Made by a program: the position numbers and the translations under genes. Of a DNA stretch of 64,000 nt, positions 1,934 through 63,932 are shown one piece after another. The notes under the pieces are model-generated. The model saw only the letters and a program-made list of their open reading frames with translations. It did not search any database and had not been told where the DNA came from. Source of the stretch: Liquidambar formosana (taxonomy: Eukaryota > Streptophyta > Magnoliopsida > Saxifragales > Altingiaceae); contig CM077833.1 in NCBI GenBank assembly GCA_039720395.1, forward strand, positions 534,501 through 598,500, read 5' to 3'. How positions within the stretch are numbered: position 1 is the stretch's first letter; the number at the start of each line of letters is the position of its first letter.

Positions 1934-2414
1934 TGTAAGCGCCGCGGGCAGGTGCGGCCCTTTGGATGTGTACGCTATTGCGAAGCGCTAGCGTGTCAGG
2001 AGTCGCCACCCAATTCAGCCTTGGGAACTAATCATACCATTCTGGGGAATTCAATCTCAAATTCGACGTATTCGGACCAGAGATTCAGAGTTCGGAGCTA
2101 AGGTACAATGTTGGGAAGGTGTTAAGCACCCAACAATGTTCGATAAAAAACCGGCCTCCGTAAACGATTATTGGCTATATTTAACCCGGAATATTTAATT
2201 AAATTTCATCCATAAGCACACAATTTATGAAATGTCATGCCAATCATATGAAAAATGATGTGAATAAAATGAGGAAGAGGTTATAATACATAACAAAACA
2301 AAATATACAGGTTAACATTTAATGGACTAACCAAAATCAGGGTAAATCATCATAAATATTTAATATTACAAAGAGACATGATTATAACTGAAGTAATTGA
2401 AAGTGGGTAAAGGA

Positions 2415-2516
2415 TGCGTACGCAATAGAAATTAATGAGTACGCATAATGCGTACGCAACACCAACAAATGCGCACGTATAAGTATGCGTACACAACAAA
2501 CACTAATGCGTACGCA
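2415..2516. promoter_or_regulatory. TGCGTACGCA palindrome cluster in C LTR (downstream half)
   Basis: Perfect decamers TGCGTACGCA start at 2415, 2449 and 2507. Variants between them include TGCGCACGTA near 2470 and TGCGTACACA near 2485. The motif is its own reverse complement and holds a CGTAC core. Confidence 0.7.
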
Positions 2517-3127
2517 TACGTTTACTGTGTTCTTCCCCCTGATCTTGGCGCGAACTGAAATCGCACGCATCACTTTTCATCTTGTTAGGGGTCAACTTCT
2601 TTCTAACTTATCTTAATCATTTCTTAATCATATTCAATGATTCAAAACTCGGATCGCAATTCTCATAGTATACTACAAGCACACATAACTCATTTACACA
2701 GATATTTACAGAACCATGGTCATGTTTGAGTTCAAAGTCCTGGGTTTGCAACCCAGCGACTGTCCGGTCCGTACAAAGAAAAAAAAATAATTAATGATAT
2801 CTATCTACCGAGTACATCTTGGTTAATCCTCGATGTATTCTTTAGTGTTAAAAGAAAGAATAATAAATATTGGAATGAGAATAACTTACCCTCAGGTTTG
2901 AGTGCCTCCGATATCGATGCGGCGATTCCCATCTTGTCGCCTTAGATTGCAGCTTTAAATTCCCTTAGTTTCTTCCTGGTTTTCTAGTGATTGGGCAATT
3001 GTTTAATGGATGATTTCATTTCTTTTTCTCTATAAGTTTCTGACTGGTTTTCTCACTGGTTTCTCAACTCTCCAATGGTTTAACTAGAATGATTTTTCTG
3101 AACCCCTTCCTCTGTTCAGAAGAGTCT

Positions 3128-3137
3128 GTATTTATAG
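3128..3137 (-). promoter_or_regulatory. TATA box of C LTR promoter
   Basis: Minus-strand CTATAAATAC, the same motif as in the B and A LTRs. It would start the element C transcript about 30 bp further left. Confidence 0.6.
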
Positions 3138-3337
3138 ACTGCGGTAAGTCGATTCTCCTCATTAAAAAAAACTGAAATCACACCTGTCCGACCCAGGAAA
3201 TCAGTAACCGGCTGGTTCCCTTGTCTTGTTCCCCACATTTCAAATTCAAGTGGTCGCTGAAATCTTCTCCCTCTACCCCATGCTGATCAGACTTGGGTGA
3301 AAACATCGGTGCTGGAAAATGGGGAAGTGACAGATGG

Positions 3338-3402
3338 TGCGTACGTATATGCTACTATTTCGTACGCATCATGCGTACGCATATAGACTATATGCGTACG
3401 TA
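3338..3402. promoter_or_regulatory. TGCGTACGCA palindrome cluster upstream of the C LTR TATA
   Basis: Four copies: TGCGTACGTA (3338), TCGTACGCAT (about 3359), perfect TGCGTACGCA (3372) and TGCGTACGTA (3393). They lie 201-265 bp upstream of the minus-strand TATA box, the same place as the 80-bp palindrome in B and A LTRs. Confidence 0.7.
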
Positions 3403-3555
3403 AGAGGTAAACACACAGGCTCTCAAGCTGCAATCTAAGCAACTCGTCGGGAATTGCTTTGTCAATTTCTCGGGACACACAATAAACCTCATCATCGGGA
3501 TTCCAAATCGGGCGATCTCACATCTGATTGGGCGGTACAAAATGGGGTGTCTACA

Positions 3556-3571
3556 GTTGCCCCTCTTTCGA
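3556..3571 (-). other. Polypurine tract of element C
   Basis: Minus-strand AAAGAGGGGCAAC directly precedes the LTR start TGTAGACACC. This is the expected plus-strand DNA priming site for a gypsy element read on the minus strand. Confidence 0.65.
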
Positions 3572-4317: not shown

Positions 4318-4382
4318 TGCGTACGCACAAACCACTACTGCGTTCACATAAGGCGTGCGCAAGGCTGTCACATGCGTACGCA
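4318..4382. promoter_or_regulatory. TGCGTACGCA palindromes upstream of the C PMD gene
   Basis: Perfect decamers at 4318 and 4373, with a GGCGTGCGCA variant between. Before element 1 inserted at 4530, these lay about 290 bp upstream of the PMD start codon at 17723, followed by a possible TATA-like TTCTATACC near 4499. Confidence 0.65.
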
Positions 4383-4529: not shown

Positions 4530-6217
4530 TGTTAGGATTATGCCCTAGAGCCAATCATAGAGATGATTGTTTAGGGATTAGGAACAATCATTTGATTTCA
4601 TTTATGTATGTCACATTTATTATTGATTTAATAAAAGGGCTTATTCTATTATGTTTATATGCATCATTTATATTTACATAATATGTCCATGGAGTTAGAG
4701 TTGAGAATATAGAATTACAAAGAGTTGTAATTTTGAGACTATAGATATATCTCTGTACTAAACTCCTTAAGCATTCCTAGTTGAAGGTTCACTATGATGG
4801 ACAGTAATGAACCATAGGACTAGCACTTGCTAGGTTGACTCTATAGGAGGATAGTTAGTCTCAAGCTATTTGTGTGGAGACACTACAACCAACAAGTGGG
4901 TGCCTATTACGAGAATAGGTACACTGAATGTGACCAAAGATATGAGATAAACTGAATAGAGTTTTATCCTGCCTGTCAATCAGTTTCTCATTGTTATAGT
5001 GGTATAAGTAATCCTTAGACCTGAGACACCATAGTTGCCTTATGCATGTAGCTTTAGAAGTTTGATAACACTAAGTGCAGATCCTATTCAGGGGTCTGCA
5101 AAGGTGTTCATTGGCCCTACTGCTATGTGTGTGAAGGCATGTGAGTGATCAACAAGGGATCCATCACTCTCAGGAAAAGAGAGAGAATGTCTTATATAGC
5201 ATTCATAATATAACTCATTAAATCCATGGCCATGGTAGGATGAATATGAAAAGAGTTTCATGAGTTCATCAATGAGTTGATATCTATGAATGAGTATAAA
5301 GTAATTGAACTAGGACTTGACAGACTTCCATGTCCTATTAGTTCAATTGGAGACATTGTGTTGAAGGAAGGATGCAATTGTAACCTATAAACTATAACAG
5401 AAGGGTTCTTTGTAAATGACTATTCACCTCATTAAGGACCACACCATGAGCCATATGCTAGGTGTTACTCATGGTTAGTAGAAGCCCTAATTGATATAAG
5501 TGAGTTATAATCAATTAGGGAATTGGAAGGAGTTCCAATTAGACCCTAAATGGAAAGAGTTCCATTGTGCACACCTCGTGTTATTCCTACTACTTAATGA
5601 TGTGAACCCAATGGGTCACACACTGATCATGCAAGAAGGGCTTTAAAGTCTATGAGAGAAAGGGTTTTAGTGAATAAAGAATAGTTCTTTATAGGCCTAT
5701 TTGTATTTGATACAAATAATAGGGGTTAATGTGCAATTAAGTGTAATTACACATAACCCTATTAGGGTTTCTTCCCCATGGCCAGCCCCCTTTAGTGGGC
5801 TGCCTATATAAGTCACACTTATGTGTGACATGGCATAAGAGGCTTGCACAATAAACCCTAGCCGTCCAGCCCTTTGGAGGCTCCCCAAGGGCTGGCCAGA
5901 ATTTCCAGCACTCTCTCTCTCTCTCTCTTCTCTTCTCCTACTCTAGCAACAACAAGGAAAAGAGGATTAGGACTTGAAGCTCTAGCTAGGTGTGGATACC
6001 GTTGGAGGCAGCACACTTGGGCTGCTCATTCACCGCTGTCCGGAATCAAAGCTTGGAGCAAAAAGGAGAAGACAAAAATTCTGTAAGTGTTCTAACCCTC
6101 TTTGTAGTTAGGGTTTGATTTTGTGTTATGCATAGTTAGATTCATGGGATTGGGAATCGTAGGAAAAATTTTTTATATTCCGCCTTTGTATTTTTCCCTC
6201 TTGTTCGATTCCCAACA
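4530..6217 (+). mobile_element. Element 1 5' LTR (1,688 bp)
   Basis: Starts TGTTAGGATTATGCC and ends GATTCCCAACA. A TATATAA box is at 5805-5811, followed by a CT-rich stretch at about 5913-5935. Closely matches 15887-17575, 50308-51971 and 58349-60012; the element 2 pair is a slightly diverged version with a shorter CT-rich region. Confidence 0.92.
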
Positions 6218-6218
6218 G

Positions 6219-6230
6219 TGGTATCAGAGC
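6219..6230 (+). other. Primer-binding site, initiator tRNA-Met type
   Basis: TGGTATCAGAGC, one base after the 5' LTR. This is the usual copia primer-binding site complementary to the 3' end of plant initiator tRNA-Met. Confidence 0.9.
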
Positions 6231-9200
6231 CATGATTATGCATAATACAAAATACATATGGGCTGGTAATTATGGTGTAGTTGAATGATTCAAAAATCTG
6301 GAAAATTTTTCTGCATAATTGTTTTTCCTCCATGGCTGAACCTAGGGTTTGGAACCCTAGGTCAATTCTCTTTTACTCCTCTTCTAATTGATGGTTAAGT
6401 GTAGCCATGGATGCAATAGGTTGCATAGGGTTTGAGTTTGGAGAAGAAGAATAAGGAAACTAGGGTTTTATAAAACTGTTATGAACAGTTTTCATGGTTG
6501 CCATGAAAAACCGTCATCTTGTTTTGCCTGCCGAATTCAGAGTTCTTCTCCAAAATTTTCTAGCCATATATGGTTAGAAAGCTCTTTGAATAAGCTTTCC
6601 AACCCAACAAACGGCGCGTCAATCCGAGTTCTGTAGTGAAAGTTATGAATTTTTTACTACAGGCTGTCTGGAAAGACAGTTTTGCTCGGGAATGATGCAA
6701 TAGCCACAACTTTGAGTTATTGATGGAGATCAAAGGCATGGCAATGGTTGCCACCACTTGGGTTATGTTCTAGAAATGGTAGGGAAAGGTTCCCAAGCAT
6801 TTAGATGCATCATAATTGGATTAAGATGCTAGAACAGAAGGAAGAAGGAGAAGAACACCATGGAGGCTGAATCTGGGTTTTAGAACCCTAAGGTTCTTGC
6901 AATTAATTCTAATTAAAGCTGCTGTATTTATGATGGCAAATCATTGTAGGATCATTATATATCATGTGTATATGATTTTCTTTAAGTTTCAAAAAGGTTT
7001 TGATGGAAAAAGATTCAAAAAGTTTGAAAATTTTTCATGAACAGCATAGCAGAATTTTTCTGCAGAAAAGTCATCAATGGAGTTTTGATTAGAACTTGAG
7101 TTAGGGAACTCCAAATTGCATGAAACCAATTGCATTAGTTTCCTAAGACATGTAGGATACTGGGAAAATTCGTTTGGTAGCCTAATTCATTCATCTTGCT
7201 GGGTTTTAAATCAATTTCTGACAATGGACAGTATGCTGTAAATTTCTGGGCAGCCTACTGTTGTTTTAATTGTTTAGAACAATTGGTGATGATTTGATCA
7301 TCCAAACCTCTTCTATTAGCTTAGTATTTCATGTAGGGACATGATACAAAAGCTGGTTTCAATGGAGGAGTCGAATTGATAAGGTTTTAGAAGCTATTGT
7401 GACCTTCAAGGTCTGCAACAATGGCTCCAGCAATGGGTTTTGGAAACCCTGATTGTTCTTGATGATGGCAGCCACTTCCACCACTTCTCACGTGTCCAGA
7501 GGCTTGTCCCACACCCCTAGGATGTTCTCCCATGACTGGCCATGGCCTCCCACAGTCGTTGGTGGCCATGGCAGCCTAGCCAAGCTCAGGTAGCCCCCTG
7601 GTAGTGACGGCTGCATAGAGTTAAGGATGAAACCCTAATTTTGAGTTAATGATGAAACCCTAATTTCATTATGGCATTAATTAAAACCCTAATTAGAATA
7701 TTAATTACCTTAATTAAGAGTTAATGATTGGTCATTAAATGACCAATCATGGTTATTGATTGTTAGGGCATAATTAATACCATTAATGATGTCTAGGGTT
7801 AGGGTTTTGGAAACCCTAATTAGTGTAATTAATTAAGGGTAATTAATACCCTATTTGGCATTAATTAAACCCTAATCCCTTTTATTAAATACCATATGAA
7901 CCTAGGGTTTTAATGATTGGACATTAAATGACCAATCATAAGGCATTTAATGATTAGGGCTTGCATTTAGGGTTTAGGGTTATGCATTTAGGGTTTAGGG
8001 TTTCTAATACACTAATTCATCATTTAATTGATTTTATTTAATTCCCATGTTAATTATTTAATTAATATTGATTAATTTTATAATGTTTTAAATGGTTTAA
8101 AACACAATTAGGGATTAAATTAAAATCTGGAAATTCTTAATTAAATGAAATTGTTTTGTTTAAATAAGGAAACCCTAATATTGGATATTAGAGTTATTTT
8201 AGGAAACTTTATATGTTTCTATTAATTTGATTAATTGAAACTAAATGTCTTAAATGTTAAGACTTTATTTAATTCTAGATATTTTTGTTTAAACCTAATA
8301 AGATTAGGATGCATTAATGAGATTAATGTAAATCATTCAAGAGAATTACCATAATGCCCATATGTTTTAATGCTTACAGTTTTTCTTTACATTATGCAAT
8401 GAGATTGTATGTATGTGTTTGGATGATGATTATGGACTATACCCCTTAAACCAATTGTGATTGGCCGTCTTATGAATGGGATTTTATTATTTACAAGAGT
8501 TGTAATTTTATTAAGGTGATGTAATTTATTTGGGGCTTGCATGCCACCTTCCCTCTCCCTCTCTCTCTATCATTCTCTTATGTACCCCACATTCCCCTTA
8601 TGTATCCCTTTCTTTAAATTATGTAAATGTTATGTAATCGAGAGCGCACTAAGGAGCATGGTGGACCCAAAGGAGCATGATAGAGCCCAACAAGCCAATG
8701 GTGGAGACCATCAAGCCAGGGAGCATATTGAAGGACTTGAAAGCTTAGAGAAGTTTTTCAAGAAAGCATGCATGTTACGAATGGTTTATTTTACGATCAC
8801 CTACACCCACCTTAGACCTTGGATTCAATCTATTGGCTTGGATTGAATCCTCTCAAAGTCCATAATCATCATAGTGGGAGCTTTAATTTATGAGATAATT
8901 GTATTAGCTCCAATACTATAGTTTGGTATATGTTACCTATTCACTTAGGGACTAATATCAAAATATGGTACTTTATATATGTTGATATATAATAGCATGC
9001 GATGTATGATTTATAATAGCATGAGATGTATGATTATAAATAGCATAATTTATATGTTTAAATTTTGATACATAGGATGCATGTTAATTTGATGAGACCC
9101 TTTAAAACCCCTCTTATTTAATATTAAGTTGAAAATGGAGAAGTCATTAGGGAATGAATTCTTCATTGCCTTCCATCATTATAGGATCATCTAACGTCCC

Positions 9201-9290
9201 TTAATGTGGGTACCTGGCTGCAGACATGTAGGAGCTACCCATGTTAAAGACATTACTTGAAACTATCACATATGAGATATCATGGGGTGC
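6231..9290 (+). other. Long untranslated leader of element 1
   Basis: About 3 kb without a supported gene. Its first 500 bp recur, diverged and inverted, at 697-1064. The stretch 7620-8000 is rich in AAACCCTAA/TTAGGGTTT telobox-like words and TTAATTAA runs. A perfect 12-bp-arm palindrome (TGATTGGTCATT and complement, 1-nt centre) lies at 7725-7749, with a second version near 7915-7940. A CT-rich block is at about 8541-8575. The same leader occurs in element 2 (51985-55060). Confidence 0.7.
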
Positions 9291-9530
9291 CTAAACTGGT
9301 ATATACCAAGAAACTAACATGTGAGGTATATATTTGGCGAAACATCCCTGTGTGAATGATGGGTTTAACTTAACTAGGGAAGTATTCCAAGAAACTAACA
9401 TGTGAGGTGTATGTTCCCTAGAGGCAAAACGATTGGAACTTGCTTATGAAGCAATAGACAAAGAGTTGTCTTCTTATTGTGGGTTAGAAGCCAAGAAACT
9501 AACATGTGAGGCTTCTAGGTCACAGTGGGA
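9291..9530 (+). other. Three hairpins with a common 17-nt loop
   Basis: The 17-nt loop AAGAAACTAACATGTGA occurs at 9308-9324, 9389-9405 and 9493-9509. Each is flanked by CC/GG and then a different complementary stem: TATATACC/GGTATATA, an outer CTAGGGAA/TTCCCTAG (9374-9381 and 9414-9421), and TAGAAGCC/GGCTTCTA. The same three are present in element 2 near 55064-55280. They sit in the leader upstream of the gag trace. Confidence 0.75.
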
Positions 9531-9849
9531 CCCCAATCCCCATTAGGAATGAGATTCCCGAATTCCATTAGAGGGTGTCTGGAAGTTGATAAAATAGTGG
9601 GAGGAACCATATGATTAAAGACCCAATCATTATGGATAAAAATGAAATCTAATTCTCTGTTTATGTAGATTACCTAATTACTCACCTCAAAACCCCTATT
9701 TCCTAATATATAGGATATTGATAGTTTGACTAAACCCGATTTCTTTGATTGACTTAGGAAATTGAGAATTGTTCTTAATTTCAAAAGATTGTTCATATGC
9801 TATTAGGCCTTTTCTTAAAGGCCCTCCATAAAACATCCTAAGAAGAAAA

Positions 9850-10260
9850 AGACACTATGCACAATTGGCATCTTGTTGTCATGCTATATGATAGTATTGA
9901 TGACTAATGAGCTTCAGAAGCAAAATTAGTCAATGCAAGTGCCTTTGATGTCCTACATCACATACAAAGGTTGTATAGTGAGTAAAATAATACTATAAAG
10001 TATAGTACTTATAAAGGACTTCTTCTAGACTAGGATGTAATAAAAGTTGTTTATTAATAATCATTCTTTTGAAAAATGATTAATCACATAGAATAGCTTG
10101 AGAAGCTAGATGTGATTTAAAATGGAAGCATAGAGGAAAGCAAGTCTTGAAAAGTCAAAGACAAAGAAATATAATTATTTTGTAGTAAATATAAGGTATT
10201 GTAAAGGGAACTTGATAAAGTATCAGTCTTCCTAGAAGAACCAAACTTTTGAAGTTTTGG
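9850..10260 (+). pseudogene. Decayed copia gag
   Basis: Short translated patches broken by stops resemble copia Gag, most clearly a patch reading like DVLHHIQRLYSE, which fits the family's 'D-[IV]-[LM]-x-[HN]-L-x-x-L-Y' region, followed by a K/E-rich tail. No open frame of useful length remains. Element 2 has the same remnant at about 55610-56030. The gag identification is by eye. Confidence 0.5.
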
Positions 10261-12179
10261 TTCATGCTCTAAACTAAATTGTTGGTTAGTTCTGCTTCTT
10301 GGTTTTTGGATTCTAGTGTAATCTAAATCAAAGCAGAAAGTTAAGTAGATAATAAGTTACCTTTAAAAATTTTAATAGAGCAAGAGTTGCTAGATTAATT
10401 TTGGGAACTTATTTCTTAACTAGGTCATTTAAGACATTCTAGAAATTTGATTTCTGAATTTAAATGACTAATTAGAGCGAATGCAACGTATTCTGAGAAT
10501 ACAAGAGATGTAGAGATGTGAACCCCAGAAATGGTTAAGGCCCACAGGAGGGTTTAAAAGTCGCCAATCTGTGGACCCAGGAAAAGAGGGCCCACGAATG
10601 GGTTTGGAAAAAGAAAGGAGTCGCCACCTTATTTTTTAAAGGAAACAAGGAAAACCCTAAAAACGGTTTTGTTTTAGGAAAACAAAAGATTGACTCCATA
10701 TTTAAAAATGGAAAGGCAAATGATCTTTTGGAAACCAGAGAATTCGGGGATTCGGAGGCTAAGTTACGATATGGGAAGGTTCTAGGCACAGCCTATAGGC
10801 ACCCATATCGCCCTAAACGGTCTCTTAATTTAATTGGGCTAAATCAAAGTCTTAATCACACATAAATCAACAGTTATCATCACAAGACAGCATGCATATC
10901 ATTCATTCATTCATCCATATAATCATGTAAATCAAAGAAAAAACAGAAAAAAGAAGGAGGGGGAGAAAACCTAGGATACTTAGTATCCTAGGGCGGACTT
11001 GAACATCACGAAGAGCGCCTACGTACCATGTATGGAAATACATGGATCAAAGTCCACGTAGTTCGAAAGGGAATAGGGTTATAACCTAATCAAGGCCTAT
11101 GGTAAACCCTAAGTTTCCTTTCAAGTAAAACATGGTAAGTTTCCAAAATAAATGATTCTCAAAAGATTTTTGGTAAAATATGGAATTTTGATAAAAGATG
11201 GAAACTTTGATTTAAAAGGTATCTTTTATTGAAAGGAAACTATAGAATCTACCATACCCCTCTATTAGGAAACAACCCTAGGGGGGGAGAAAGGGAAAGT
11301 TTCAAAGGAAGGAAAGAAGGGTGAATTGGGGCACCCTCACACCCTACTTACCTTAAGCAAAAGCAACCTGTCAAAGTAACCACCCTATTGCATAGGGTAA
11401 TTACCTTATTTGTAAGATTTCATCTCACAATAGCCAAAATAACCACCCCACATTGGTGGGGTAGTTGCACCTGTTGTACCTGTCAAAGCACCTGCAATTT
11501 CCATGCAAAACATACCAAAAATACCAACCAAACAAGCTAGATTCCAAATCAAGCCATTATCATGCCCAAACATGGGCTAACACATGCTCAAAATATCATA
11601 TCAAAGACAAATAACAGATCTGGACAGAATTGAAATAAGGCTTAAAATCAACCACCAGTCATGCAACAACATGAATCATAAGCTAACTGAAACCCTAATT
11701 CAACCCTACATGCAATGACATGCAAAAAACCCTAAAATCAACTATATGAATGCTAGAAATATCATAGTTATCAAATATGCAGCACATATATGTCAACTAT
11801 GAAGAAAACACAAGAAAAAACCCTAAGCTATCATGCTATATGCTACTTTCCTAATACAAGGATGAATGAAACCCTAGAATCACAATTGTGCTCAAAATCA
11901 CATAAAATAACTCTAAATCATGCAAAGCCCATCATAGACATCATGCTAATCATGCATATTAATCAATAGAAGCATCAACACATGATAAAAACACAAACTT
12001 GCACATGAAATATAGCTATTCTAAGTAAAAACCTAATTTCAGCACAGGAGAAACCCTAGAATTGCAAACATGCAGTAAATCACATGGAATAACATCCTAG
12101 CATACTAAACAGCCCACAAATATGATCCTAAACATGCATACTAACTAATAGAAATAGCAAAACACAACAAAAACACAAA

Positions 12180-12530
12180 CTTTAATATGCAAAAGAGTTA
12201 TTTCATGCAGAAAACCGTTTTAAGCACCTAAGAAACCCTAAAGTCCCAAACATGCAGTAAATCACATGGAATAACATCCTAGCATACTAAACAGCCCACA
12301 AATATGATCCTAAACATGCATGGAAGCAACAAGACATGATAAAAACACAAGCTCTAATATACCAAAGAGTTATTTCATGCAGAAAACCATTTTAAGCACC
12401 TAAGAAACCCTAAAGTCCCAAACATGCAGTAAATCACATGGAATAACATCCTAGCATACTAAACAGCCCACAAATATGATCCTAAACATGCATGGAAGCA
12501 ACAAGACGTGATAAAAACACAAGCTTTGAT
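12180..12530. repeat. Two 172-175-bp tandem units inside the LTR
   Basis: A unit running from AGAGTTATTTCATGCAG to ACATGCATGGAAGCAAC occurs twice. B LTRs also carry two (22735-23080 and 62290-62640), A LTRs only a part of one. This accounts for most of the length difference between the 3.3-kb and 2.96-kb LTR types. Confidence 0.7.
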
Positions 12531-13021
12531 ATGCAATCATCCTATTCTATGCAAAAACCCTAACTTTAAAAGAGAGAAGAGGAGGAAGGGGGGAATACCT
12601 ATGGTGAAGTATCCTTTTGCTGCTGTAGGGTGTCCTCCTTCTCTTGTGTACTGCTGGGAGTTCCTTCCTTCAAGCCTTCAAGCAATGCTCCAACCCTCCT
12701 CCAAGCTTACTCTCACACTCTCTCACTCAAAGTATAGGTTAAACTACCCTAAGGATGGCTGCCATAGCCTCCAAGTCTCACACAAAGTGCCTCCAAAGTG
12801 TCCCCTATTGCTGAAGTATAAGGGGGTATTTATAGGGATTGAGGGGAAACCCTCAATGGTTGGGATTAAAACCCTAGGGATTGATCCAAGGGCTCTTAGA
12901 GGTTACCTTGGGGCTCAAGTAGGTCAAAAAAGGCTGAAATTAGGGTTAAATGGCGGCCAAAGGCGAGCAAATCCGAGAAAATAGGGTGGGAGCCGCGTCA
13001 AGGCTCAAAAAAGGAAAGTGG

Positions 13022-13101
13022 CTCGGGTGACCACCTGGGGCTGGGCGGCTAGCAGCCTGGGCCCAGGCGGCTAGCCGCCCAGGCCTGGGTGGTCACCCGA
13101 G
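13022..13101. promoter_or_regulatory. 80-bp GC-rich palindrome in the solo LTR
   Basis: Two 40-bp arms that pair almost completely (CTCGGGTGACCACC outside, GGCGGCTAGCCGCC in the right arm, TGGG/CCCA centre). The left-arm core has a one-base change here, GGCTAGCAGCC. It lies about 190-265 bp upstream of the minus-strand TATA box. Confidence 0.8.
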
Positions 13102-14149
13102 GCACTGTCAGCTTATGCCCATTTTTGACCCTTTCAGCTTCCAAATGTGTTTCAGGGCCCAAATCAACTCCGATTTTGACGAAACGAAAGCCAAAACGAC
13201 CGTGTTTCGAAGGGGAATGTAATTTGAGTCACTTGAGGGCAAGAAACCCTAGCCATGGCTGCATGGTTGAGTCCTACAAAGGTGGTTAACCGCTATGCCT
13301 CACCATCGCTTAGCTTAGGTATGCACATAGGGTCGCACCGAATGCTTTCCAATTCGAAATTCAACCTCCCTAAACACATTTGGGGATGAAATCAAGACCA
13401 ATCAAGGTCAAATGAGTAGTCATAGAGTGAAAATCATGAGCCAATTCGAGCTAACCCGAAGTAGGTCTTTTAGCCAACCTGAGCCTTAATGAGCCATTCT
13501 AATCCCGAACCTTCAATTCATCGAATTGAACCCACAAATACCTCAAATACAACCATATGAACTCCAATTGGCAATTTGGAGATCATTTCAAGGTCAAATG
13601 GAAAGTTTGTGATCAAAAAGACGATTATGCCCCTCAAGTCACAAAAGTTCTAATTAACCCTCGAGATCAACTCCAAATCGAACCAAAATTCATACACACC
13701 ATCCTTAGGACCCTAGAAACTCAATGCAAAAGACTAGACTCAAAAAGGAAACAAAAAGACTCATGCAATGACAAACCCTAGCTAAGGTGACAGGTGGCAA
13801 AAATGGGGTGTGACAAGAGACTCTCATTTAAATGTAACGATTATGACTTGGTTATGAGATTACCAAACCCATCTTTTACTTGGTGAAGTGAAAGAGTTAC
13901 ATTTATAATTTGACTAATACATTGTGATGTATATAGTCATGTAGAGCATGCATTCAATTACAATAGACTCATCTTAGAATACCATAGCTCAATGGTGAAT
14001 CTAAGAGAACGAATTGAACCCTATTAAGATATGGTTTGATCCATGATGAGTTTTACTAATGTATCCATCTAGGATATACCTTAAAATTGCTACATATTGA
14101 TAATTTAGGGTTCACTCCAGTTTTGTCCCAATTATATCAGATATAATAT

Positions 14150-15840: not shown

Positions 15841-15872
15841 TAGGTATGCGATACATGGTCGATTGGCTTTAG

Positions 15873-15886
15873 TGCAAGTGGGAGAT
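15873..15886 (+). other. Polypurine tract of element 1
   Basis: GCAAGTGGGAGAT immediately before the 3' LTR start, the common copia form AAGTGGGAGATTGTTAGG. Confidence 0.8.
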
Positions 15887-48587: not shown

Positions 48588-48590
48588 CTA
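48588..48590 (-). other. In-frame UAG between gag and protease
   Basis: Minus-strand reads CAA CAG TAG TTG AAA. Gag and protease are in one frame with only this codon between them. It can be a programmed read-through stop or a recent CAG to TAG change; sequence alone does not decide. Confidence 0.8.
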
Positions 48591-51971: not shown

Positions 51972-51972
51972 G

Positions 51973-51984
51973 TGGTATCAGAGC
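51973..51984 (+). other. Primer-binding site of element 2
   Basis: TGGTATCAGAGC, one base after the LTR; initiator tRNA-Met type. Confidence 0.9.
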
Positions 51985-54900
51985 CAGGTTATGCATAATA
52001 CAAAATACATATGGGCTGCTAATTATGGTGTAGTTGAATGATTCAAAAATCTGGAAAATTTTTCTGCATAATTGGTTTTCCTCCATGGCTGAACCTAGGG
52101 TTTGGAACCCTAGGTCAATTCTCTTCTACTCCTCTTCTAATTGATGGTTAAGTGTATCCATGGATGCAATAGGTTGCATAGGGTTTGAGTTTGGAGAAGA
52201 AGAATAAGGAAACTAGGGTTTTATAAAACTGTTATGAACAGTTTTCATGGTTGCCATGAAAAACCGTCATCTTGTTTTGCCTGCCGAATTCAGAGTTCTT
52301 CTCCAAAATTTTCGAGCCATATATGGTTAGAAAGCTCTTTGAATAAGCTTTCCAACCCAACAAACGGTGCGTCAATCCGAGTTCTGTAGTGAAAGTTATG
52401 AATTTTTTACTACAGGCTGTCTGGAAAGACAGTTTTGCTCGGGAATGATGCAATAGCCACAACTTTGAGTTATTGATGGAGATCAAAGGCATGGCAATGG
52501 TTGCCACCACTTGTCTTATGTTCTAGACATGGTAGGGAAAGGTTCCCAAGCATTTAGATGCATCATAATTGGATTAAGATGCTAGAACAGAAGGAAGAAG
52601 GAGAAGAACACCATGGAGGCTGAATCTGGGTTTTAGAACCCTAAGGTTCTTGCAATTAATTCTAATTAAAGCTGCTGTATTTATGATGGAAGATCATTGT
52701 AGGATCATTATATATCATGTGTATATGATTTTCTTTAAGTTTCAAAAAGGTTTTGATGGAAAAAGATTCAAAAAGTTTGAAAATTTTTCATGAACAGCAT
52801 AGCAGATTTTCTCTGCAGAAAAGTCATCAATGGAGTTTTGATTAGAACTTGAGTTAGGGAACTCCAAATTGCATGAAACCAATTGCATTAGTTTCCTAAG
52901 ACATGTAGGATACTGGGAAAATTCGTTTGGTAGCCTAATTCATTCATCTTTCTGGGTTTTAAATCAATTTCTGACCATGGACAGTGTGCTGTCAAATTCT
53001 GGGCAGCCTACTGTTGTTTTAATTGTTTAGAACAATTGGTGATGATTTGATCATCCAAACCTCTTCTATTAGCTTAGTATTTCATGTAGGGACATGATAC
53101 AAAAGCTGGTTTCAATGGAGGAGTCAAATTGATAAGGATTTAGAAGCTATTGTGACCTTCAAGGTCTGCAACAATGGCTCCAGCAATGGGTTTTGGAAAC
53201 CCTGATTGTTCTTGATGATAGCAGCCACTTCCACCACTTCTCACGTGTCCAGAGGCTTGTCCCACACCCCTAGGATGTTCTCCCATGGCTGGCCATGGCC
53301 TCCCACAGTCGTTGGTGGCCATGGCAGCCTAGCCAAGCTCAGGCAGCCCCCTGGTAGTGACGGCTGCATAGAGTTAAGGATGAAACCCTAATTTTGAGTT
53401 AATGATGAAACCCTAATTTCATTATGGCATTAATTAAAACCCTAATTGGAATATTAATTACCTTAATTAAGAGTTAATGATTGGTCATTAAATGACCAAT
53501 CATGGTTATTAATTGTTAGGGCATAATTAATACCATTAATGATGTCTAGGGTTAGGGTTTTTGATAACCCTAATTAGTGTAATTAATTAAGGGTAATAAA
53601 TACCCTATTTGGCATTAATTAAACCCTAATCCCTTTTATTAAATACCGTATGAACCTAGGGTTTTAATGATTGGTCATTAAATGACCAATCATAAGGCAT
53701 TTAATGATTAGGGCTTGCATTTAGGGTTTAGGGTTATGCATTTAGGGTTTAGGGTTTTAGGAAACCCTAATACACTAATTCATCATTTTAATGATTTTAT
53801 TTAATTCCTATATTAATTATTTAATTAATATTGATTAATTTTATAATGTTTTAAATGGTTTAAAACACAATTAGGGATTAAATTAAAATCTAAAAATTCT
53901 TAATTAAATGAAATTGTTTTGTTTAATTAAGGAAACCCTAATATTGGATATTAGAGTTATTTTAGGAAACTTTACATGTTTTAAATTAATTTGATTAATT
54001 GAAACTGTAATGTCTTAAATGTTAAGACTTTATTTAATTCTGGATATTTTTGTTAAAACCTAATAAGATTAGGATGCATTAATGAGATTAATGTAAATCA
54101 TTCAAGAGAATTACCATAATGCCCATATGTTTTAATGCTTACAGTTTTTCTTTACATTATGCAATGAGATTGTATGTATGTGTTTGGATGATGATTATGG
54201 ACTATACCCTTTAAACCAATTGTGATTGGCCGTCTTATGAATGGGATGTTATTATTTACAAGAGTTGTAATTTTATTAAGGTGATGTAATTTATTTGGGG
54301 CTTGCATGCCACCTTCCCTCTCCCTCTCTCTCTATCATTCTCTTATGTACCCCACATTCCCCTTATGTATCCCTTTCTTTAAATTATGTAAATGTTATGT
54401 AATCGAGAGCGCACTAAGGAGCATGGTGGACCTAAAGGAGCATGATAGAGCCCAACAAGCCAATGGTGGAGACCATCAAGCCAAGGGAGCAGATTGAAGG
54501 ACTTGAAAGCTTAGAGAAGTGTTTCAAGACAGCATGCATGTTTCGAATGTGTTATTTTACGATCACCTACACCCACCTTAGACCTTGGATTCAATCTATT
54601 GGCTTGGATTGAATCCTCTCAAAGTCCATAATCATCATAGTGGGAGCTTTAATTTATGAGATAATTGTATTAGCTCCAATACCATAGTTTGGTATATGTT
54701 ACCTATTCACTTAGGGACTAATATCAAAATATGGTACTTTATATATGTTGATATATAATAGCATGCGATGTATGATTTATAATAGCATGAGATGTATGAT
54801 TATAAATAGCATAATTTATATGTTTAAATTTTGATACATAGGATGCATGTTAATTTGATGAGACCCTTTAAAACCCCTCTTATTTAATATTAAGTTGAAA

Positions 54901-55060
54901 ATGGAGAAGTCATTGGGGAATGAATTCTTCATTGCCTTCCATCATTATAGGATCATCTAACGTCCCTTAATGTGGGTACCTGGCTGCAGACATGTAGGAG
55001 CTACCCATCTTAAAGACATTACTTGAAACTATCACATATGAGATATCATGGGGTGCCTAA
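51985..55060 (+). other. Untranslated leader of element 2
   Basis: Counterpart of 6231-9290. Telobox-like AAACCCTAA words and TTAATTAA runs at 53380-53800; the TGATTGGTCATT palindrome appears twice, both perfect (near 53480 and 53665). No gene is seen. Confidence 0.7.
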
Positions 55061-55063
55061 ACT

Positions 55064-55285
55064 GGTATATACCAAGAAACTAACATGTGAGGTATATATT
55101 TGGCGAAACATACCTGTGTGAATGATGGGTTTAACTTAACTAGGGAAGTATTCCAAGAAACTAACATGTGAGGTGTATGTTCCCTAGAGGCAAAACGATT
55201 GGAACTTGCTTATGAAGCAATAGACAAAGAGTTGTCTTCTTATTGTGGGTTAGAAGCCAAGAAACTAACATGTGAGGCTTCTAGG
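55064..55285 (+). other. Three common-loop hairpins of element 2
   Basis: Same three loops AAGAAACTAACATGTGA and the same stems as in element 1 (9291-9530). Confidence 0.75.
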
Positions 55286-55609
55286 TCACAGTGGGACCCC
55301 AATCCCCATTAGGAATGAGATTCCCGAATTCCATTAGAGGGTGTATGGAATTTGATAAAATAGTGGGAGGTACCATATGATTAAAGACCCAATCATTATG
55401 GATAAAAATGAAATCTAATTCTCTGTTTATGTAGATTACCTAATTACTCACCTCAAAACCCCTATTTCCTAATATATAGGATATTGATAGTTTGACTAAA
55501 CCCGATTTCTTTGATTGACTTAGGAAATTGAGAATTGTTCTCAACTTCAAAAGATTGTTTATATGCTATTAGGCCTTTTATTAAAGGCCCTCCATAAAAC
55601 ATCCTAAGA

Positions 55610-58290
55610 AGAAAAAGACACTATGCGCAATTGGCATCTTGTTGCCATACTATATGATAGTATTTATGACTAATGAGCTTCAGAAGCAAAATTAGTTAAT
55701 GCAAGTGCCTTTGATGTCCTACATCACCTACAAAGGTTGTATTGTGAGTAAAATAATACTATAAAGTATAGTACTTGTAAAGGACTTCTTCTGGACTAGG
55801 ATGTAATAAAAGTTGTTTATTAATAATCATTCTTTTGAAAAATGATTAATCACATAGAATAGCTTGAGAAGCTAGATGTGATTTAAAATGGAAGCATAGA
55901 GGAAAGCAAGTCTTGAAAAGTCAAAGACAAAGAAATATAATTATTTTGTAGTAAACATAAGGTATTGTAAAGGGAACTTGATAAAGTATCAGTCTTCCTA
56001 GAAGAACCAAACTTTTGAAGTTTTGGTTCATGCTCTAAACTAAATTGTTGGTTAGTTCTGCTTCTTGGTTTTTGGATTATAGTGTAATCTAAATGGAAGC
56101 AGAAAGTTAAGTAGATAATAAGTTACCTTTAAAAATTTTAATAGAGCAAGAGTTGCTAGATTAATTTTGGGAACTTATTTCTTAACTAGGTCATTTAAGA
56201 CATTCTAGAAATTTGATTTCTGAATTTAAATGACTAATTAGAGCGAATGCAACGTATTCCGAGAATACAAGAGATGTAGAGACTCTCATTTAAATGTAAC
56301 GATTATGACTTGGTTATGAGATGACCAAACCCATCTTTTACTTGGTGAAGTGAAGGAGTTACATTTATAATTTGACTAATACATTGTGATGTATATAGTC
56401 ATGTAGAGCATGCATTCAATTACAGTAGACTCATCTTAGAATACCATAGCTCAATGGTGAATCTAAGAGAACGAATTGAACCCTATTAAGATATGGTTTG
56501 ATCCATGATGAGTTTTACTAATGTATCCATCTAGGATATACCTTAAAATTGCTACATGTTGATAATTTAGGGTTCACTCCAGTTTTGTCCCAATTATATC
56601 AGATATGATATGGGAAGAAACCCAACTTAAAGAAGTTAAGGCTTGGGCTTGTGCTACGTATGTCTGGAAACATAATGTAGACAATCTGGAAATACGGTCA
56701 AGTAAGTGTTGAATTGTGGTATATCCCAAAAGTGGTTGGGATAGTATTTCTATTACCCTAATGAACAAAAGTTGTCCATTAGGATGTTTGCTGGATTTTC
56801 TTGAGAAAGAGTTCATTCAAGAAAGATGCAAAAGTAGATAGAATTTATAGAATTGTCTGTAAAGCCACAAACGAACAAAGATCCAACCCTTGTCTCTGTT
56901 GAGACAAAACCCTTAACTACACTACAATCTTTTCATAGATCAAATTGGATATTTCTTAACATAAGAGAGATATTGTATCTCTATTAGAATGTGAAAGAAT
57001 TATTCTTTGGTGATAAAGATCACCAAGATAATCCTATTGATTATGACTAGACGATGTTTCACATCAACTCGAGAAATGACTAAGAGTTATTAAATCCAAT
57101 ATGGATAGGTAGAGACCTAAAAGGCTTGGCTATTTAAGAATGTTTTCAACATAGGCAAAAAGTTGTCTATAAAGAAACTTGTTTGATAATAGTTATGCTG
57201 AAATCCATTTGGATCTTGTTATCTATAAACACACATTTTGAATATAAGATATGTCAAAAAGGATATAAAGATGTTATATCAAATGGTGAAAAACCATAAA
57301 AGTGTGTAAGTTATAGAAGTCTATTAATAGACTACAAGGTTCTCATAATTAGAACATCTATAAAGTTGAAGTAATCAAATTGTTTGATTTCTCTCATTGT
57401 ATAGATGGACCATGAGTGTATAAAAGGTTAGTGGGAGTGCGATCGTTTTTCTTTATCCTAAGTATGGATGACATCATAATCATTATGAATGATATATGAA
57501 TGTTATCTAATGTAAAGTTTTAGTTTTTGGAGAAAAACTAATTCATGAAAGATTTGGCAAAAGCATCCAATAAGATCTATAGAGATAGATCATATAGATT
57601 GCTAAGTATCTCCAAATCATTAAACATAGTTGAAATGTTGAAGGAGTTCAACATGGAGAATTCTAAGGGAGGTCTGATTTACTTCAGATAAGAATTCATT
57701 ATTCAAGGGCATGTGCCCTAGGATAACACAAGTAAGATTCTTAAAGTGTTAAGAAGCCTTATTTTACACTATGTATTGAACCTGATATCTATTATGTTGT
57801 AATTGTTACAAATAGTTATCAATCAATTCAAATTTGGAATATTGGATTGTATATGGAAATTGCAAACTCATAGTAGATGGGTATATGGATTTGGATATAA
57901 TCCATATGGGGTATATTTTATATTCACTTTAGTTAGTGAAATACTTAATGGAAGAACTGTATGAAAGATACAGTGGATTCCATTATTGAGGGTGAATTAA
58001 TTGTCGCATTGTCTAGGAGACTGTTTGGATCTATAAGTTCATTTAGAACTTAGAGTTGTTCCTTCCATTGAGTTGCCCACACCTTGTTTTGTGACAACAA
58101 TGGGTCTACAGCTCAAGTACAGGAATCACGGTCTCATCAAAAGTCCAAACTCATAGAGTGACAATTCCAAGTGATTAGAGGAATCATTGGAAGAGGTAAT
58201 AGATACATTACAGAAGATATTATCTACATAAGTTTTTGTAGACCTACTGACTAAAGATTTAAAACATAATTGGTTGTGTCTAAGACCAAC
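55610..58290 (+). pseudogene. Decayed copia gag and pol of element 2
   Basis: Counterparts of the element 1 remnants: gag patch near 55610-56030, integrase end, RT and RNase H patches near 56620-58250. Stops and shifts match those of element 1 at most places, so the decay predates the separation of the two copies. The empty site of element 1's solo LTR is at 56278-56282. Confidence 0.65.
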
Positions 58291-58348
58291 ATCTTGAGAA
58301 GATAGGTATGTGATACATGGTCGATTGGCTTTAGTGCAAGTGGGAGAT

Positions 58349-60012
58349 TGTTAGGATTATGCCCTAGAGCCAATCATAGAGATGATTGTTTAGGGATTAG
58401 GAACAATCATTTGATTTCATTTATGTATGTCACATTTATTATTGATTTAATAAAAGGGCTTATTCTATTATGTTTATATGCATCATTTATATTTACATAA
58501 TATGTCCATGGAGTTAGAGTTGAGAATATGGAATTACAAAGAGTTGTAATTTTGAGACTATATATATATCTCTGTACTAAACTCCTAAAGCATTCCTAGT
58601 TGAAGGTTCACTATGATGGACAATATTGAACCATAGGACTAGCACTTGTTAGGCTGACTCTATAGGAGGATAGCTAGTCTCAAGCTATTTGTGTGGAGAC
58701 ACTACAACCAACAAGTGGGTGCCTATTATGAGAATAGGTACACTGAATGTGACCAAAGATATGAGATAAACTAAATGGAGTTTTATCCTGCCTGTCAATC
58801 AGTTTCTCATTGTTATAGTGGTACAAGTAATCCTTAGACCTGAGACACTATAGTTGCCTTATGCATGTAGCTTTAGAAGTTTGATAACACTAAGTGCAGA
58901 TCCTATTCAGGGGTCTGCAAAGGTGTTCATTGGCCCTACTGCTATGTGTATGAAGGCATGTGAGTGATCAACAAGGGATCCATCACTCTCAGGAAAAAGA
59001 GAGAGAATGTCTCATATAGCATTCATAATATAACTCATTAAATCCATGGCCATGGTAGGATGAATGTGGAAAAGAGTTTCCATGAGTTCATCAATGAGTT
59101 GATATCTATGAATGAGTATAAAGTAATTGAACTAGGGACTTGACAGACTTCCATGTCCTATTAGTTCAATTGGAGACATTGTGTTGAAGGAAGGATGCAA
59201 TTGTAACCTATAAACTATAACAGAAGGGTTCTTTGTAAATGACTATTCACCTCATTAAGGACCACACCATGAGCCATATGCTAGGTGTTACTCATGGTTA
59301 GTAGAAGCCCTAATTGATATAAGTGAGTTATAATCAATTAGGGAATTGGAAGGAGTTCCAATTAGACCCTAAATGGAAAGAGTTCCATTGTGCACACCTC
59401 GTGCTATTCCTACTACTTAATGATGTGAACCCAATGGGTCACACACTGATCATGCAAGAAGGGCTTTAAAGTCTATGAGAGAAAGGGTTTTAGTGAATAA
59501 AGAATAGTTCTTTATAGGCCTATTTGTATTTGATACAAATAATAGGGGTTAATGTGCAATTAAGTGTAATTACACATAACCCTATTAGGGTTTCTTCCCC
59601 ATGGCCAGCCCCCTTTAGTGGGCTGCCTATATAAGTCACACTTATGTGTGACATGGCATAATAAGAGGCTTGCACAAAAAACCCTAGCCGTCCAGCCCCT
59701 TGGAGTCTCTTTTCTCTCTCTCTCTCTTCTCCACCTCTAGCAACAACAAGGAAGAAGAAAGAAAGGACTTGAAGCTCTAGCTAGGTGTGGATACCGTTGG
59801 AGGCAGCACACTTGGGCTGCTCATTCACCGCTGTCCGGAATCAAAGCTTGGAGCAAAAAGGAGAAGACAAAAATTCTGTAAGTGTTCTAACCCTCTTTGT
59901 AGTTAGGGTTTGATTTTGTGTTATGCATAGTTAGATTCATGGGATTGGGAATCGTAGGAAAAATTTTTATATTCCGCCTTTGTATTTTTCCCTCTTTGTT
60001 CGATTCCCAACA
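58349..60012 (+). mobile_element. Element 2 3' LTR (1,664 bp)
   Basis: I see no difference from the 5' LTR. Preceded by the GTGGGAGAT polypurine tract and followed by the TSD CATCC. Confidence 0.93.
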
Positions 60013-60633
60013 CATCCTAAGGGTCTGTCCTAGGCTTCCATATTTGTCTCAATGACTTCACGCCATATATACTCAATTAGTCCCTTTTAATCCAATCACC
60101 TTTGCAAGGGTCATGGGCGAAAGGTACGTATTAAGGATATAGGGTGCAAAGGTCCTCTATTAATTTTTCCGTTAAGCACATCACAAACACGGTCATGATA
60201 TCATTACAAACAATGTGGGTGCATAAGGGTGAAACCATAGTGTCCTACAAGTCTGTCTATATGGACTAATGATAAGGGTAGGCTGGGGTCCTTCACTTGC
60301 TTGAGCAATCTTTATACCTAACCACATGTGGCATCAGGAACGCCGCGTGGGTCCAGCAGTACGTGATTAACTCATTTAATATACCCAAGGGCAAGCCCAA
60401 GGGTACTTGGCAAGAGAGGTTGAGAGCTTTCGCCCCAACTCATGGAATCAGGAAAACCAAGGTTGAGGCTAGGCCCGTCAGTGGCAAGGGACATCGATCC
60501 TAACATGCAAGAGTTTGCGCACACAATGCAATAAATGAAAGCACACAATCAAGCGGATGCAATGTGATTGATTTTAATTAAACAAAAGAAATTAACTTAG
60601 CCCAATCAAATTGTATAGAGTCTAGCCCACAAA
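60013..60633 (-). other. 5' UTR of element B
   Basis: The remainder of B's leader, cut off from gag by element 2. It contains the patch 60297-60503, highly similar to A 38075-38281. No gene is supported. Confidence 0.65.
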
Positions 60634-60651
60634 TCCCCAGTGGAGTCGCCA
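60634..60651 (-). other. Primer-binding site of element B
   Basis: Minus-strand TGGCGACTCCACTGGGGA, 3 nt from the LTR edge; same as element A, Tat/Ogre tRNA-Arg-like type. Confidence 0.78.
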
Positions 60652-60654
60652 GTC

Positions 60655-63600
60655 TGTGGACCCCGAAAAACGAAGTTAAGGGCCCACGGGGCGGTTTTAG
60701 GTTTGAAAAAGGAAAAGGAGTCGCCACCTTATTTTTTTAAACGAAATAAGGAAAACCCTAAAAAACAGTTTTGTTTTAGGAAAACAAAAGATTGACTCCA
60801 TGTTTAAAAATGGAAAGGCAAATGATCTTTTGGAAACCAGAGAATTCGGGGATTCGGAGGCTAAGTTACGATATGGGAAGGTTCTAGGCAAAGCCTATAG
60901 GCACCCATATTGCCCTAAACGGTCTCTTAATTTAATTGGGCTAAATCAAAGTCTTAATCATACACAAATCAACAATTATCATCACAAGACAGCATGCATA
61001 TCATTTATTCATTCATCCATACAATCTAGTAAATCAAAGAAAAACAGAAAAAAGAAAGGGGGAGAGGAGAAAACCTAGGATACTTAGTATCCTAGGGCGG
61101 ACTTGAACATCACGAAGAGCGCCTACGTACCATGTATGGAAATACATGGATCAAAGTCCACGTAGTTCGAAAAGGAATAGGGTTATAACCTAATCAAGGC
61201 CTATGGTAAACCCTAAGTTTCCTTTTAAGTAAAACATGGTAAGTTTCCAAAATAAATGATTCTCAAAAGATTTTTGGTAAAATATGGAATTTTGATAAAA
61301 GATGCAAACTTTGATTTAAAAGGTATCTTTTATTGAAAGGAAACTATAGAATCTACCATACCCCTCTATTAGGAAACAACCCTAGGGGGGGAGAAAGGGA
61401 AAGTTTCAAAGGAAGGAAAGAAGGGTGAATTGGGGCACCCTCACACCCTACTTACCTTAAGCGAAAGCAACCTGTCAAAGTAACCACCCTATTGCATAGG
61501 GTAATTACCTTATTTGTGAGATTTCATCTCACAATAGCCAAAATAACCAACCCACATTGGTGGGGTAGTTGCACCTGTTGTACCTGTCAAAGCACCTGCA
61601 ATTTCCATGCAAAACATACCAAAAATGCCAACCCAACAAGCTAGATTCCAAATCAAGCCATTATCATGCCCAAACATGGGCTAACACATGCTCAAAATAT
61701 CATATCAAGGACAAATAACAGATCTGGACAGAATTGAAATAAGGTTTAAAATCAACCACAAGTCATGCAACAACATGAATCATAAGCTAACTAAAACCCT
61801 AATTCAACCCTACATGCAATGACATGCAAAAAACCCTAAAATCAACTATATGAATGCTAGAAATATCATAGTTATCAAATATGCAGCACATATATATCAA
61901 CTATGAAGAAAACACAAAGAAAAACCCTAAGTTATCATGCTATATGCTACTTTCCTAATACAAGGATGAATGAAACCCTAGAATCACACTAGTGCATAAA
62001 ATTCCATGAAATAACCCTAAATCATGCAAAACAGAATATGAACAGCACTCTAACCATGCATATTAATCAATGGAATGATCCACACATGAGAAAAATACAA
62101 GCTTGCACATGAAATATAGCTATTCTAAACATAAACTCAATTCCAGCACTAAGGAAACCCTAGAATCCCAAACATGCAGCAAATCACATGGAACATCATC
62201 CTAGCATACTAAACAGCCCATAAACATTATCCTAATCATGCATACATTCCGATGGAAGCAACAAAACACAATAAAAAATATAAGCTCTAATATACCAAAG
62301 AGTTATTTCATGCAGAAAACCATTTTAAGCACCTAAGAAACCCTAAAGTCCCAAACATGCAGTAAATCACATGGAATAACATCCTAGCATACTAAACAGC
62401 CCACAAATATGATCCTAAACATGCATGGAAGCAACAAGACATGATAAAAACACAAGCTCTAATATACCAAAGAGTTATTTCATGCAGAAAACCATTTTAA
62501 GCACCTAAGAAACCCTAAAGTCCCAAACATGCAGTAAATCACATGGAATAACATCCTAGCATACTAAACAGCCCACAAATATGATCCTAAACATGCATGG
62601 AAGCAACAAGACGTGATAAAAACACAAGCTTTGATATGCAATCATCCTATTCTATGCAAAAACCCTAACTTTAAAAGAGAGAAGAGGAGGAAGGGGGGAA
62701 TACCTATGGTGAAGTATCCTTTTGCTGCTGTAGGGAGTCCTCCTTCTCTTGTGTACTGCTGGGAGTTCCTTCCTTCAAGCCTTCAAGCAATGCTCCAGCC
62801 CTCCTCCAAGCTTACTCTCACACTCTCTCACTCAAAGTATAGGTTAAACTACCCTAAGGATGGCTGCCATAGCCTCCAAGTCTCACACATGCCTCACACT
62901 TCAGAATTTTCTCTCCCAGTGGCCTCCCCTATTGCTGAAGTATAAGGGGGTATTTATAGGGATTGAGGGAAAACCCTCAATGGTTGGGATTAAAACCCTA
63001 GGGATTGATCCAAGGGCTCTTAGAGGTTCCCTTGGGGCTCAAGTAGGTCAAAAAGGGCTGAAATTAGGGTTAAATGGCGGCTAAAGGCGAGCAAATCCGA
63101 GGAAATAGGGAAGGAGCCGCGTCAAAGCTCAAAAAAGGAAAGTGGCTCGGGTGACCACCTGGGGCTGGGCGGCTAGCAGCCTGGGCCCAGGCGGCTAGCC
63201 GCCCAGGCCTGGGTGGTCACCCGAGGCCATGTCAGCTTCAGCCCAAAGTTGACCCTTTCAGCTTCCAAAAGTGTTTCAGGGCCCAAATCAACTCCGATTT
63301 TGACGAAACGAAAGCCAAAACGACCGTGTTTCGAAGGGGAATGTAATTTGAGTCACTTGAGGGCGAGAAACCCTAGCCATGGCTGCATGGTTGGGTCCTA
63401 CAAAGGTGGTTAACCGCTATGCCTCACCATCGCTTAGCTTAGGTATGCACATAGGGTTGCACCGAATGCTTTCCAATTCGAAATTCAACCTCCCTAAACA
63501 CATTTGGGGATGAAATTAAGACCAATCAAGGTCAAATGAGTAGTCATAGAGTGAAAATCATGAACCAATTCAAGCTAACCCGAAGTAGGTCTTTTAGCCA

Positions 63601-63932
63601 ACCTGAGCCTTGCTGAGCCATTCTAATCCCGAACCTTCAATTCATCGAATTGATCCCACAAATACCTCAAATACAACCATATGAACTCCAATTGGCAACT
63701 TGGAGATCATTTCAAGGTCAAATGGAAAGTTTGTGATCAAAAAGACGATTATGCCCCTCAAGTCACAAAAGTTCTTATTAACCCTCAAGATCAACTCCAA
63801 ATCGAACCAAAATTCATACACACCATCCTTAGGACCCTAGAAACTCAATGCAAAAGACTAGACTCAAAAAGGAAACAAAAAGACACATGCAATGACAAAC
63901 CCTAGCTAAGGTGGCAAAAATGGGGTGTGACA
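60655..63932 (-). mobile_element. Element B 5' LTR (3,278 bp)
   Basis: Drives gag-pol on the minus strand: TATA at 62950-62959, 80-bp palindrome at 63146-63225, two 172-bp units at about 62290-62640. About four differences from the 3' LTR (for example near 60739-60746, 60910 and 63571). Confidence 0.93.
63146..63225. promoter_or_regulatory. 80-bp palindrome in B 5' LTR
   Basis: Same as 23588-23667; it lies 187-266 bp upstream of the TATA box that would transcribe gag-pol. Confidence 0.8.

Follow-up and report, generated by a model that had tools for sequence, protein, structure and literature searches.

The stretch of DNA analysed here comprises 64,000 nucleotides from Liquidambar formosana (assembly GCA_039720395.1, contig CM077833.1, positions 534,501 to 598,500) and is called the window in the following. 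It is a nest of minus-strand long terminal repeat (LTR) retrotransposons, among them the elements B and C, each of which carries an antisense PMD gene and an antisense DUF7745 or DUF7745-like gene. In both families a short palindromic motif of their own recurs in the LTR and upstream of the antisense genes. The 3' LTR of element C (1934-3556, minus strand) is delimited by TG..CA ends and an adjacent polypurine tract, and it aligns end to end, with 84% identity, with an LTR-like stretch of another sequence, L048. A nested A element interrupts element C, which is moreover cut by the insertion of B. The 3' LTR of B (21097-24376) and its 5' LTR (60655-63934), both on the minus strand, are 99.9% identical; inside element B a nested copy, B' (28740-41389), and one A copy are found.

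The antisense PMD gene of C (17723-20485, plus strand, start and end inferred) contains an exon, 18698-19402, which scores as PMD. The DUF7745-like gene of C (20910-21096, plus strand) is cut off by the B insertion, and its start was located by tblastn of the L046 and B proteins. For this piece of about 62 codons no Pfam match was obtained and its identity rests on the 36-37% tblastn matches, which is a weak point. In B the antisense PMD gene (26391-28739, plus strand, start inferred, exon 27079-27786 scoring as PMD) is interrupted by B' at about 28740 and resumes after 41389. The antisense DUF7745 gene of B (42178-43443, plus strand) encodes 421 aa. PMD and DUF7745 appear to be related to each other, since a PMD match (E 1.1e-14) is also obtained with the DUF7745 protein of B. 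The C-terminus of this DUF7745 copy (43387-43443) deviates: other copies match it over residues 1-403, and in most of them the open frame is 431 aa long. The related P0001 has a basic tail at its end.

With at most 2 mismatches the B motif GGCGGCTAGCCGCC gives 28 matches on both strands of the window, compared to 0.13 expected. These are 14 sites forming 7 pairs, of which five lie in B-type LTR copies and one each upstream of the PMD and the DUF7745 gene of B. The cassette in the 3' LTR (23586-23670) is a quasi-palindrome with two 14-mers 22 bp apart and lies about 186-270 bp upstream of the TATA box at 23393-23400. The remaining LTR copies are those of the 5' LTR (63144-63228), of a B-type LTR (10517-13828) within an A element (13020-13104), and of the left (30914-30998) and right (40600-40684) LTRs of B'. 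A diverged cassette upstream of the PMD gene (about 26022-26096) retains two 14-mers 22 bp apart (26036, 26058), and the one upstream of DUF7745 (41952-42036), followed by TATAAA at 42122-42127, is 91% identical over 85 bp to the LTR cassette. The cassette is a near-perfect dyad, 88-89% symmetric in the LTR and DUF7745 copies and only 56% at PMD.

The corresponding motif of element C is the decamer TGCGTACGCA, for which the window contains 23 sites with at most 1 mismatch, while 0.27 are expected and 0 of 100 shuffles reach 23. All 23 sites are within element C (6.1 kb) and none was found in the B or A sequence examined. One array in the C LTR (3338-3402) consists of four decamers spaced 21, 13 and 21 bp, about 202-266 bp upstream of the LTR TATA box (TATTTATA on the plus strand, 3129-3136), which was read directly from the sequence. 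A second LTR array combines a quartet (2415/2436/2449/2470) with a pair (2486/2507). The 21-13-21 spacing is found again 5' of the PMD gene (4318-4382, the two inner sites with 2 mismatches), where the nested A element, starting at 4530, separates the array from the first PMD exon. The first PMD intron contains six pairs (18058-18628: 18058/79, 18227/47, 18342/63, 18403/24, 18530/51 and 18598/619), and two decamers 13 bp apart (20811-20833) lie upstream of the truncated DUF7745-like start. Between these two and that start no TATAAA was found, which is a weak point of the C case.

The sites are phased at two helical turns, by 22 bp in B and by 20-21 bp, sometimes 13 bp, in C. The 22-bp distance is seen in all seven B pairs. 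In C, if sites with at most 2 mismatches are counted, three quartets (2415-2470, 3338-3393, 4318-4373) have the spacing 21, 13, 21 bp, and many pairs are 20-21 bp apart; 8 of the 15 adjacent gaps are exactly 21 bp, which was matched by 0 of 100,000 simulations with uniform gaps. Among gaps of at most 30 bp in the C-class sequences, related copies included, 13 bp occurred five times, 16 once, 19 twice, 20 fourteen times and 21 twenty-seven times. Genome-wide counts were taken over the 718-Mb assembly: two exact C decamers within 25 bp are found at 6,916 places, compared to 0 for the reversed pattern. A hand tally of 50 listed plus-strand pairs, all lying within the first 8 Mb of a single contig and with related copies among them, gave 30 pairs spaced 21 bp, 15 spaced 20 bp and 5 others. 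The two motifs are mutually exclusive: the C-class sequences, 43 kb in total, contain 0 B sites, and the B sequences, 161 kb, contain 0 C sites.

The same arrangement is present in a family related to C, represented by L046, in which the antisense PMD and DUF7745 genes are ordered as in B. Arrays are located at 590-681 in its LTR and at 1304-1496 before a TATA box and the PMD gene; a further one, at 2186-2297, immediately precedes the main PMD exon, and six sites at 4611-4722 lie upstream of DUF7745. The LTR array is about 166-257 bp upstream of its TATA box, and thus the distances agree in the three families B, C and L046. A sequence-only reading of the window had placed the B palindrome at 186-265 bp and the C decamers at 201-265 bp upstream of the LTR TATA box, both of which the measured distances bear out. 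It had also noted that the motifs differ while the positions agree; the mutual exclusion of the sites, the matching LTR distances and L046 as a third family are all in line with that.

Of the L046 decamers, 21 out of 24 are exact. The 18 short spacers of L046 are all 10 or 11 bp long, yet 16 of them are distinct, and their mean identity is 0.47 compared to 0.38 for shuffled letters. The arrays of C are not made of duplicated units, because their spacers vary in sequence and are constant in length; simple tandem duplication as the origin of the C arrays was rejected for that reason. Noncoding DNA of L046 can be aligned to C for no more than 38 bp, at the LTR end; the other alignments are PMD and DUF7745 coding stretches and short repeats.

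The PMD proteins of C, L046 and L047, all of which are accompanied by TGCGTACGCA, share 43-46% mutual identity, whereas each is only 24-26% identical to the PMD protein of B. In a PMD tree the C-like group is unresolved against long branches, and co-variation of motif and protein is therefore read from pairwise identity. That the motif follows the PMD lineage fits a co-divergence of both, although it is no proof, as the elements in their entirety show the same relationships. Co-variation across families, which the sequence-only reading had proposed, is hence seen insofar as TGCGTACGCA tracks the PMD lineage, and nothing beyond common descent emerges from the two to three motif lineages. A resemblance to DUF1985 was found in six of the seven PMD proteins scanned, to which those of family D (see below) do not belong. 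The E-values range between 5.9e-7 and 0.003, and none of these matches reaches the curated Pfam cut-off. Sequence relatives of PMD and DUF7745 in the PDB were not found at E<=1.

We also looked for signs of selection on the antisense DUF7745 gene of B and its promoter. Pooled over 30 B copies the ratio of nonsynonymous to synonymous substitution rates is 0.10 (synonymous divergence 7.6%, nonsynonymous 0.8%); these copies were chosen as the 30 best protein matches out of 99 that were scored from 6,440 candidates, and such ranking lowers the nonsynonymous rate. This bias cannot plausibly turn a synonymous divergence of 7.6% into a nonsynonymous one of 0.8%. Judged by these rates, the gene is under purifying selection and selectively maintained. 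A hand count revealed an internal stop in 8 of the 99 scored rows. Both palindromic sites are carried by 28 of the 30 copies, at about -201 and -179 from the DUF7745 start, and likewise by a 31st copy; the other two lost exactly 22 bp and kept one site. With these two deletion copies omitted, non-CpG differences are rarest between cassette and TATA box (0.69%) and in the paired 14-mers (0.75%), and rise to 2.06% for the cassette including its edges, 2.3% for the coding sequence and 3.4% further upstream. At CpG positions, compared because their retention could be a sign of hypomethylation, divergence is 4.4% in the 14-mers, 4.4% in the coding sequence and 19% upstream, the last value coming from only 4 CpG positions. 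The LTR cassette points in the right direction, weakly, with differences at 0/76 positions versus 44/1275 in 1.3 kb of LTR in one comparison and 2/76 versus 80/1292 in another.

A search with PF24924 was made for further families, in which 118 of 3,958 candidates were scored and from whose rows 12 loci were taken. In nine of the 12 a third dyad, CACGCCTAC/GTAGGCGTG or a variant of it, is located upstream of the DUF7745 TATA box; these define family D. L062 aligns to family D and its dyad is decayed. Single half-sites of D occur at L063:2383 and L064:7533, a half-site with one mismatch recurs in the tandem repeats of L064, and D sequence contains one C-type site with one mismatch. L065 was considered as a possible new family and rejected, as it is another B copy. 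The rule that LTR, PMD gene and DUF7745 gene share one site holds in B, in L046 and in C as far as it is preserved; in family D it was not borne out, and it is not universal. The earlier expectation that the same motif lies upstream of both PMD and DUF7745 thus stands for B and L046 and, as far as the element is preserved, for C, and was not borne out for D. A second inverted repeat, CCCACTCACGC...GCGTGAGTGGG, was observed just upstream of the DUF7745 TATA box in family D promoters (L053-L062).

B, C and their kin are, by domain order and gene content, Ogre/Tat-type Ty3 retrotransposons. An extra RNase H between RNase H and integrase is described as a mark of Ogre/Retand elements in part of the text of PMC6317226. 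The pol gene of B (43777-47148, minus strand) encodes reverse transcriptase (residues 197-357), RNase H (420-550), a second RNase H-like domain (RVT_3, 601-719) and integrase (887-983), so that the additional RNase H is located exactly there. The gag gene lies at 48588-50228 (minus strand), and the PMD-type extra open reading frame (ORF) is antisense and placed between pol and the 3' LTR, as in Ogre/Retand elements.

How could these observations be connected? The LTR and the two antisense genes share one family-specific cis-element made of palindromic sites phased at two helix turns. One of the antisense proteins, as dimer or higher oligomer, would bind the array of its own family; sites separated by two helical turns, with no constraint on the spacer sequence, are what would be expected if a dimeric or oligomeric protein sat along one face of the DNA. 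Binding at the promoters of the LTR and of the two antisense genes would then result in a self-recognising, autoregulated control of transcription and chromatin. We consider it fairly probable that a self-encoded PMD/DUF7745 regulator acts in this way. The sequence-only reading had suggested such a circuit; the observation behind it is confirmed and extended, its interpretation is partly supported, and the phasing by 22 and 20-21 (13) bp, the near-perfect B dyad and the recurrence in the genome go beyond it.

As to the outcome, the VANC proteins of Arabidopsis VANDAL transposons are described, in the portion of PMC5735166 drawn on here, as DUF1985 proteins which bind short family-specific motifs and cause methylation loss. 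Anti-silencing or activation would for that reason be the natural outcome to test first, and by this analogy it is plausible and rated above repression. A more specific proposal is put forward tentatively: Ogre/Tat elements might encode their own anti-silencing or activation system, in which the related PMD and DUF7745 proteins, as distant kin of the DUF1985 of VANC, oligomerise on family-unique phased arrays, maintain an open state at the LTR and at their own genes, and co-diverge with their sites, which would lead to separate regulatory islands.

Several points weigh against a self-encoded regulator. One C array (2415-2516) sits downstream of its LTR TATA box and is hence no upstream site. 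The cassette-to-TATA stretch is as conserved as the 14-mers, so that the whole DUF7745 promoter appears constrained and not the palindromes alone, and the cassette with its edges is hardly more conserved than the coding sequence. The contrast between the ten positions of 79 in-register C-type sites, with a conservation of 94-99%, and their flanks, with at most 56%, speaks for the regulator, but the count preselects sites with at most 3 mismatches. L051 and L052 have no dyad and carry a 39-41-bp tandem repeat instead. Outside the DUF7745 promoter the D dyad was not found in either of two upstream stretches, for which full LTR coverage is not established. The predicted fold of DUF7745, obtained with a 10-row alignment, has a predicted local distance difference test score (pLDDT) of 45 and is too poor to compare. 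Finally, both motifs resemble known binding sites of plant transcription factors: the B palindrome corresponds to two inverted GCC boxes (AGCCGCC, the ERF site), and the C motif contains CGTAC, the SBP/SPL core.

The last point leads to host factors as the best-surviving alternative, in which the elements hijack different host proteins, ERF for B and SBP/SPL for C, while the antisense proteins do something else. LTRs often borrow host factor sites and the sites here are promoter-proximal, as would be expected of borrowed ones. However, all ten positions of the C site are equally conserved, the outer T and A like the GTAC core, and two unrelated factors would need identical two-turn phasing and identical positions. 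The motif is moreover common to the antisense genes of one family and absent from the other. Common geometry of two unrelated motifs next to homologous antisense proteins would thus favour the antisense proteins over two unrelated host factors, and we regard hijacking as unlikely.

If the binder is self-encoded, it could also be a repressor, the array being an operator that holds the LTR and the antisense genes down for copy-number control or latency. Sites at all three promoters suit autorepression equally well as activation. A conserved element gene that represses its own LTR is less obviously selected, though, and parts of PMC7156037 and PMC9899485 tie the PMD proteins MAIN and MAIL1 to activation of DOWN-motif genes; repression therefore seems quite improbable. 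Passive or structural repeats, arisen by tandem duplication or serving as cruciform or RNA-structure elements with no dedicated binder, could draw on the long quasi-palindrome of B, the richness of the window in tandem repeats and the two 22-bp losses, but are very improbable given C-class spacers that keep length and not sequence, sites recurring upstream of several promoters and on both strands, and decamers which outlast the surrounding sequence.

Returning to a self-encoded regulator, the closest known system is VANC/VANDAL, which in the parts of PMC5735166 and PMC10398659 used here shares with it an element-encoded protein, short family-specific motifs gathered in noncoding parts, and related families with different motifs. 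A family-specific short motif repeated in noncoding regions is likewise what was found in the elements of the window, and the DUF1985 of VANC resembles the PMD proteins here, below cut-off. The carrier, however, has LTRs, gag and pol and is no Mutator-like DNA transposon, as VANDALs are. VANC motifs (YAGTATTAY, AGTTGTCC/AC), as far as these accounts give them, are non-palindromic and in tandem repeats, whereas the arrays here are palindromic; VANC binding and demethylation are demonstrated, while the present system is known from sequence. It may work in a VANC-like manner, yet by its carrier it stands outside that family. The host proteins MAIN and MAIL1 are similar in that PMD proteins are tied to a promoter motif (DOWN) and to transposable element expression, according to portions of PMC7156037 and PMC9899485. 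They are encoded by host genes, though, and the DOWN example CATGCAGTTT does not resemble the present motifs; their direct DNA binding is not established in those portions, and binding by PMD and DUF7745 is likewise putative. The PMD-type extra ORFs of Ogre elements (PMC6317226, PMC9289625) represent the same kind of element and gene. They were reported for 57% of Ogre elements, and whether such ORFs function is a question raised in PMC6317226; the sections of both accounts at hand mention no cis-motif or regulatory circuit. A limited literature search found no comparable self-recognition system in LTR retrotransposons, and one for DUF7745 found no papers.

If PMD products bind family-specific phased palindromes, the function of the Ogre extra ORFs becomes directly testable. 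LTR retrotransposons would then resemble VANDAL DNA transposons in having regulators of expression or silencing that target the element itself, and the layout of the arrays in giant plant retrotransposons could show how elements control or evade silencing. It would also bear on the DNA-level role of the element-derived host PMD proteins MAIN and MAIL1 and provide natural protein-site pairs for studies of plant chromatin control.

Some minor observations concern the remaining parts of the nest. In the B' copy, units of 23 bp and 91 bp around GTCAATACTC form long arrays (31900-33760), and a gag fragment is retained (36030-37316); no antisense gene was found in B' by ORF listing. Tandem duplications of 172-183 bp are present in B-type LTRs (11868-12536, 22414-23079 and 61972-62641), where the LTRs of B' have a single unit. 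The two A elements, 4530-17575 in C and 50308-60012 in B, have LTRs that are 99.6% and 100% identical, and in a listing of frames of at least 90 aa they show no stop-to-stop ORF above 108 aa save one that extends beyond the border. With near-identical LTRs and short ORFs both A elements appear to be young and non-autonomous. To the left of element C, a stretch of 275 bp (698-972) is 83-84% identical, in inverted orientation, to 6452-6726 and 52205-52479, both in A elements. Within B an 80-bp tandem repeat (24596-24921) includes the dyad CATCGAAC-TTC-GTTCGATG, a candidate repeated palindrome between the LTR and the PMD gene.

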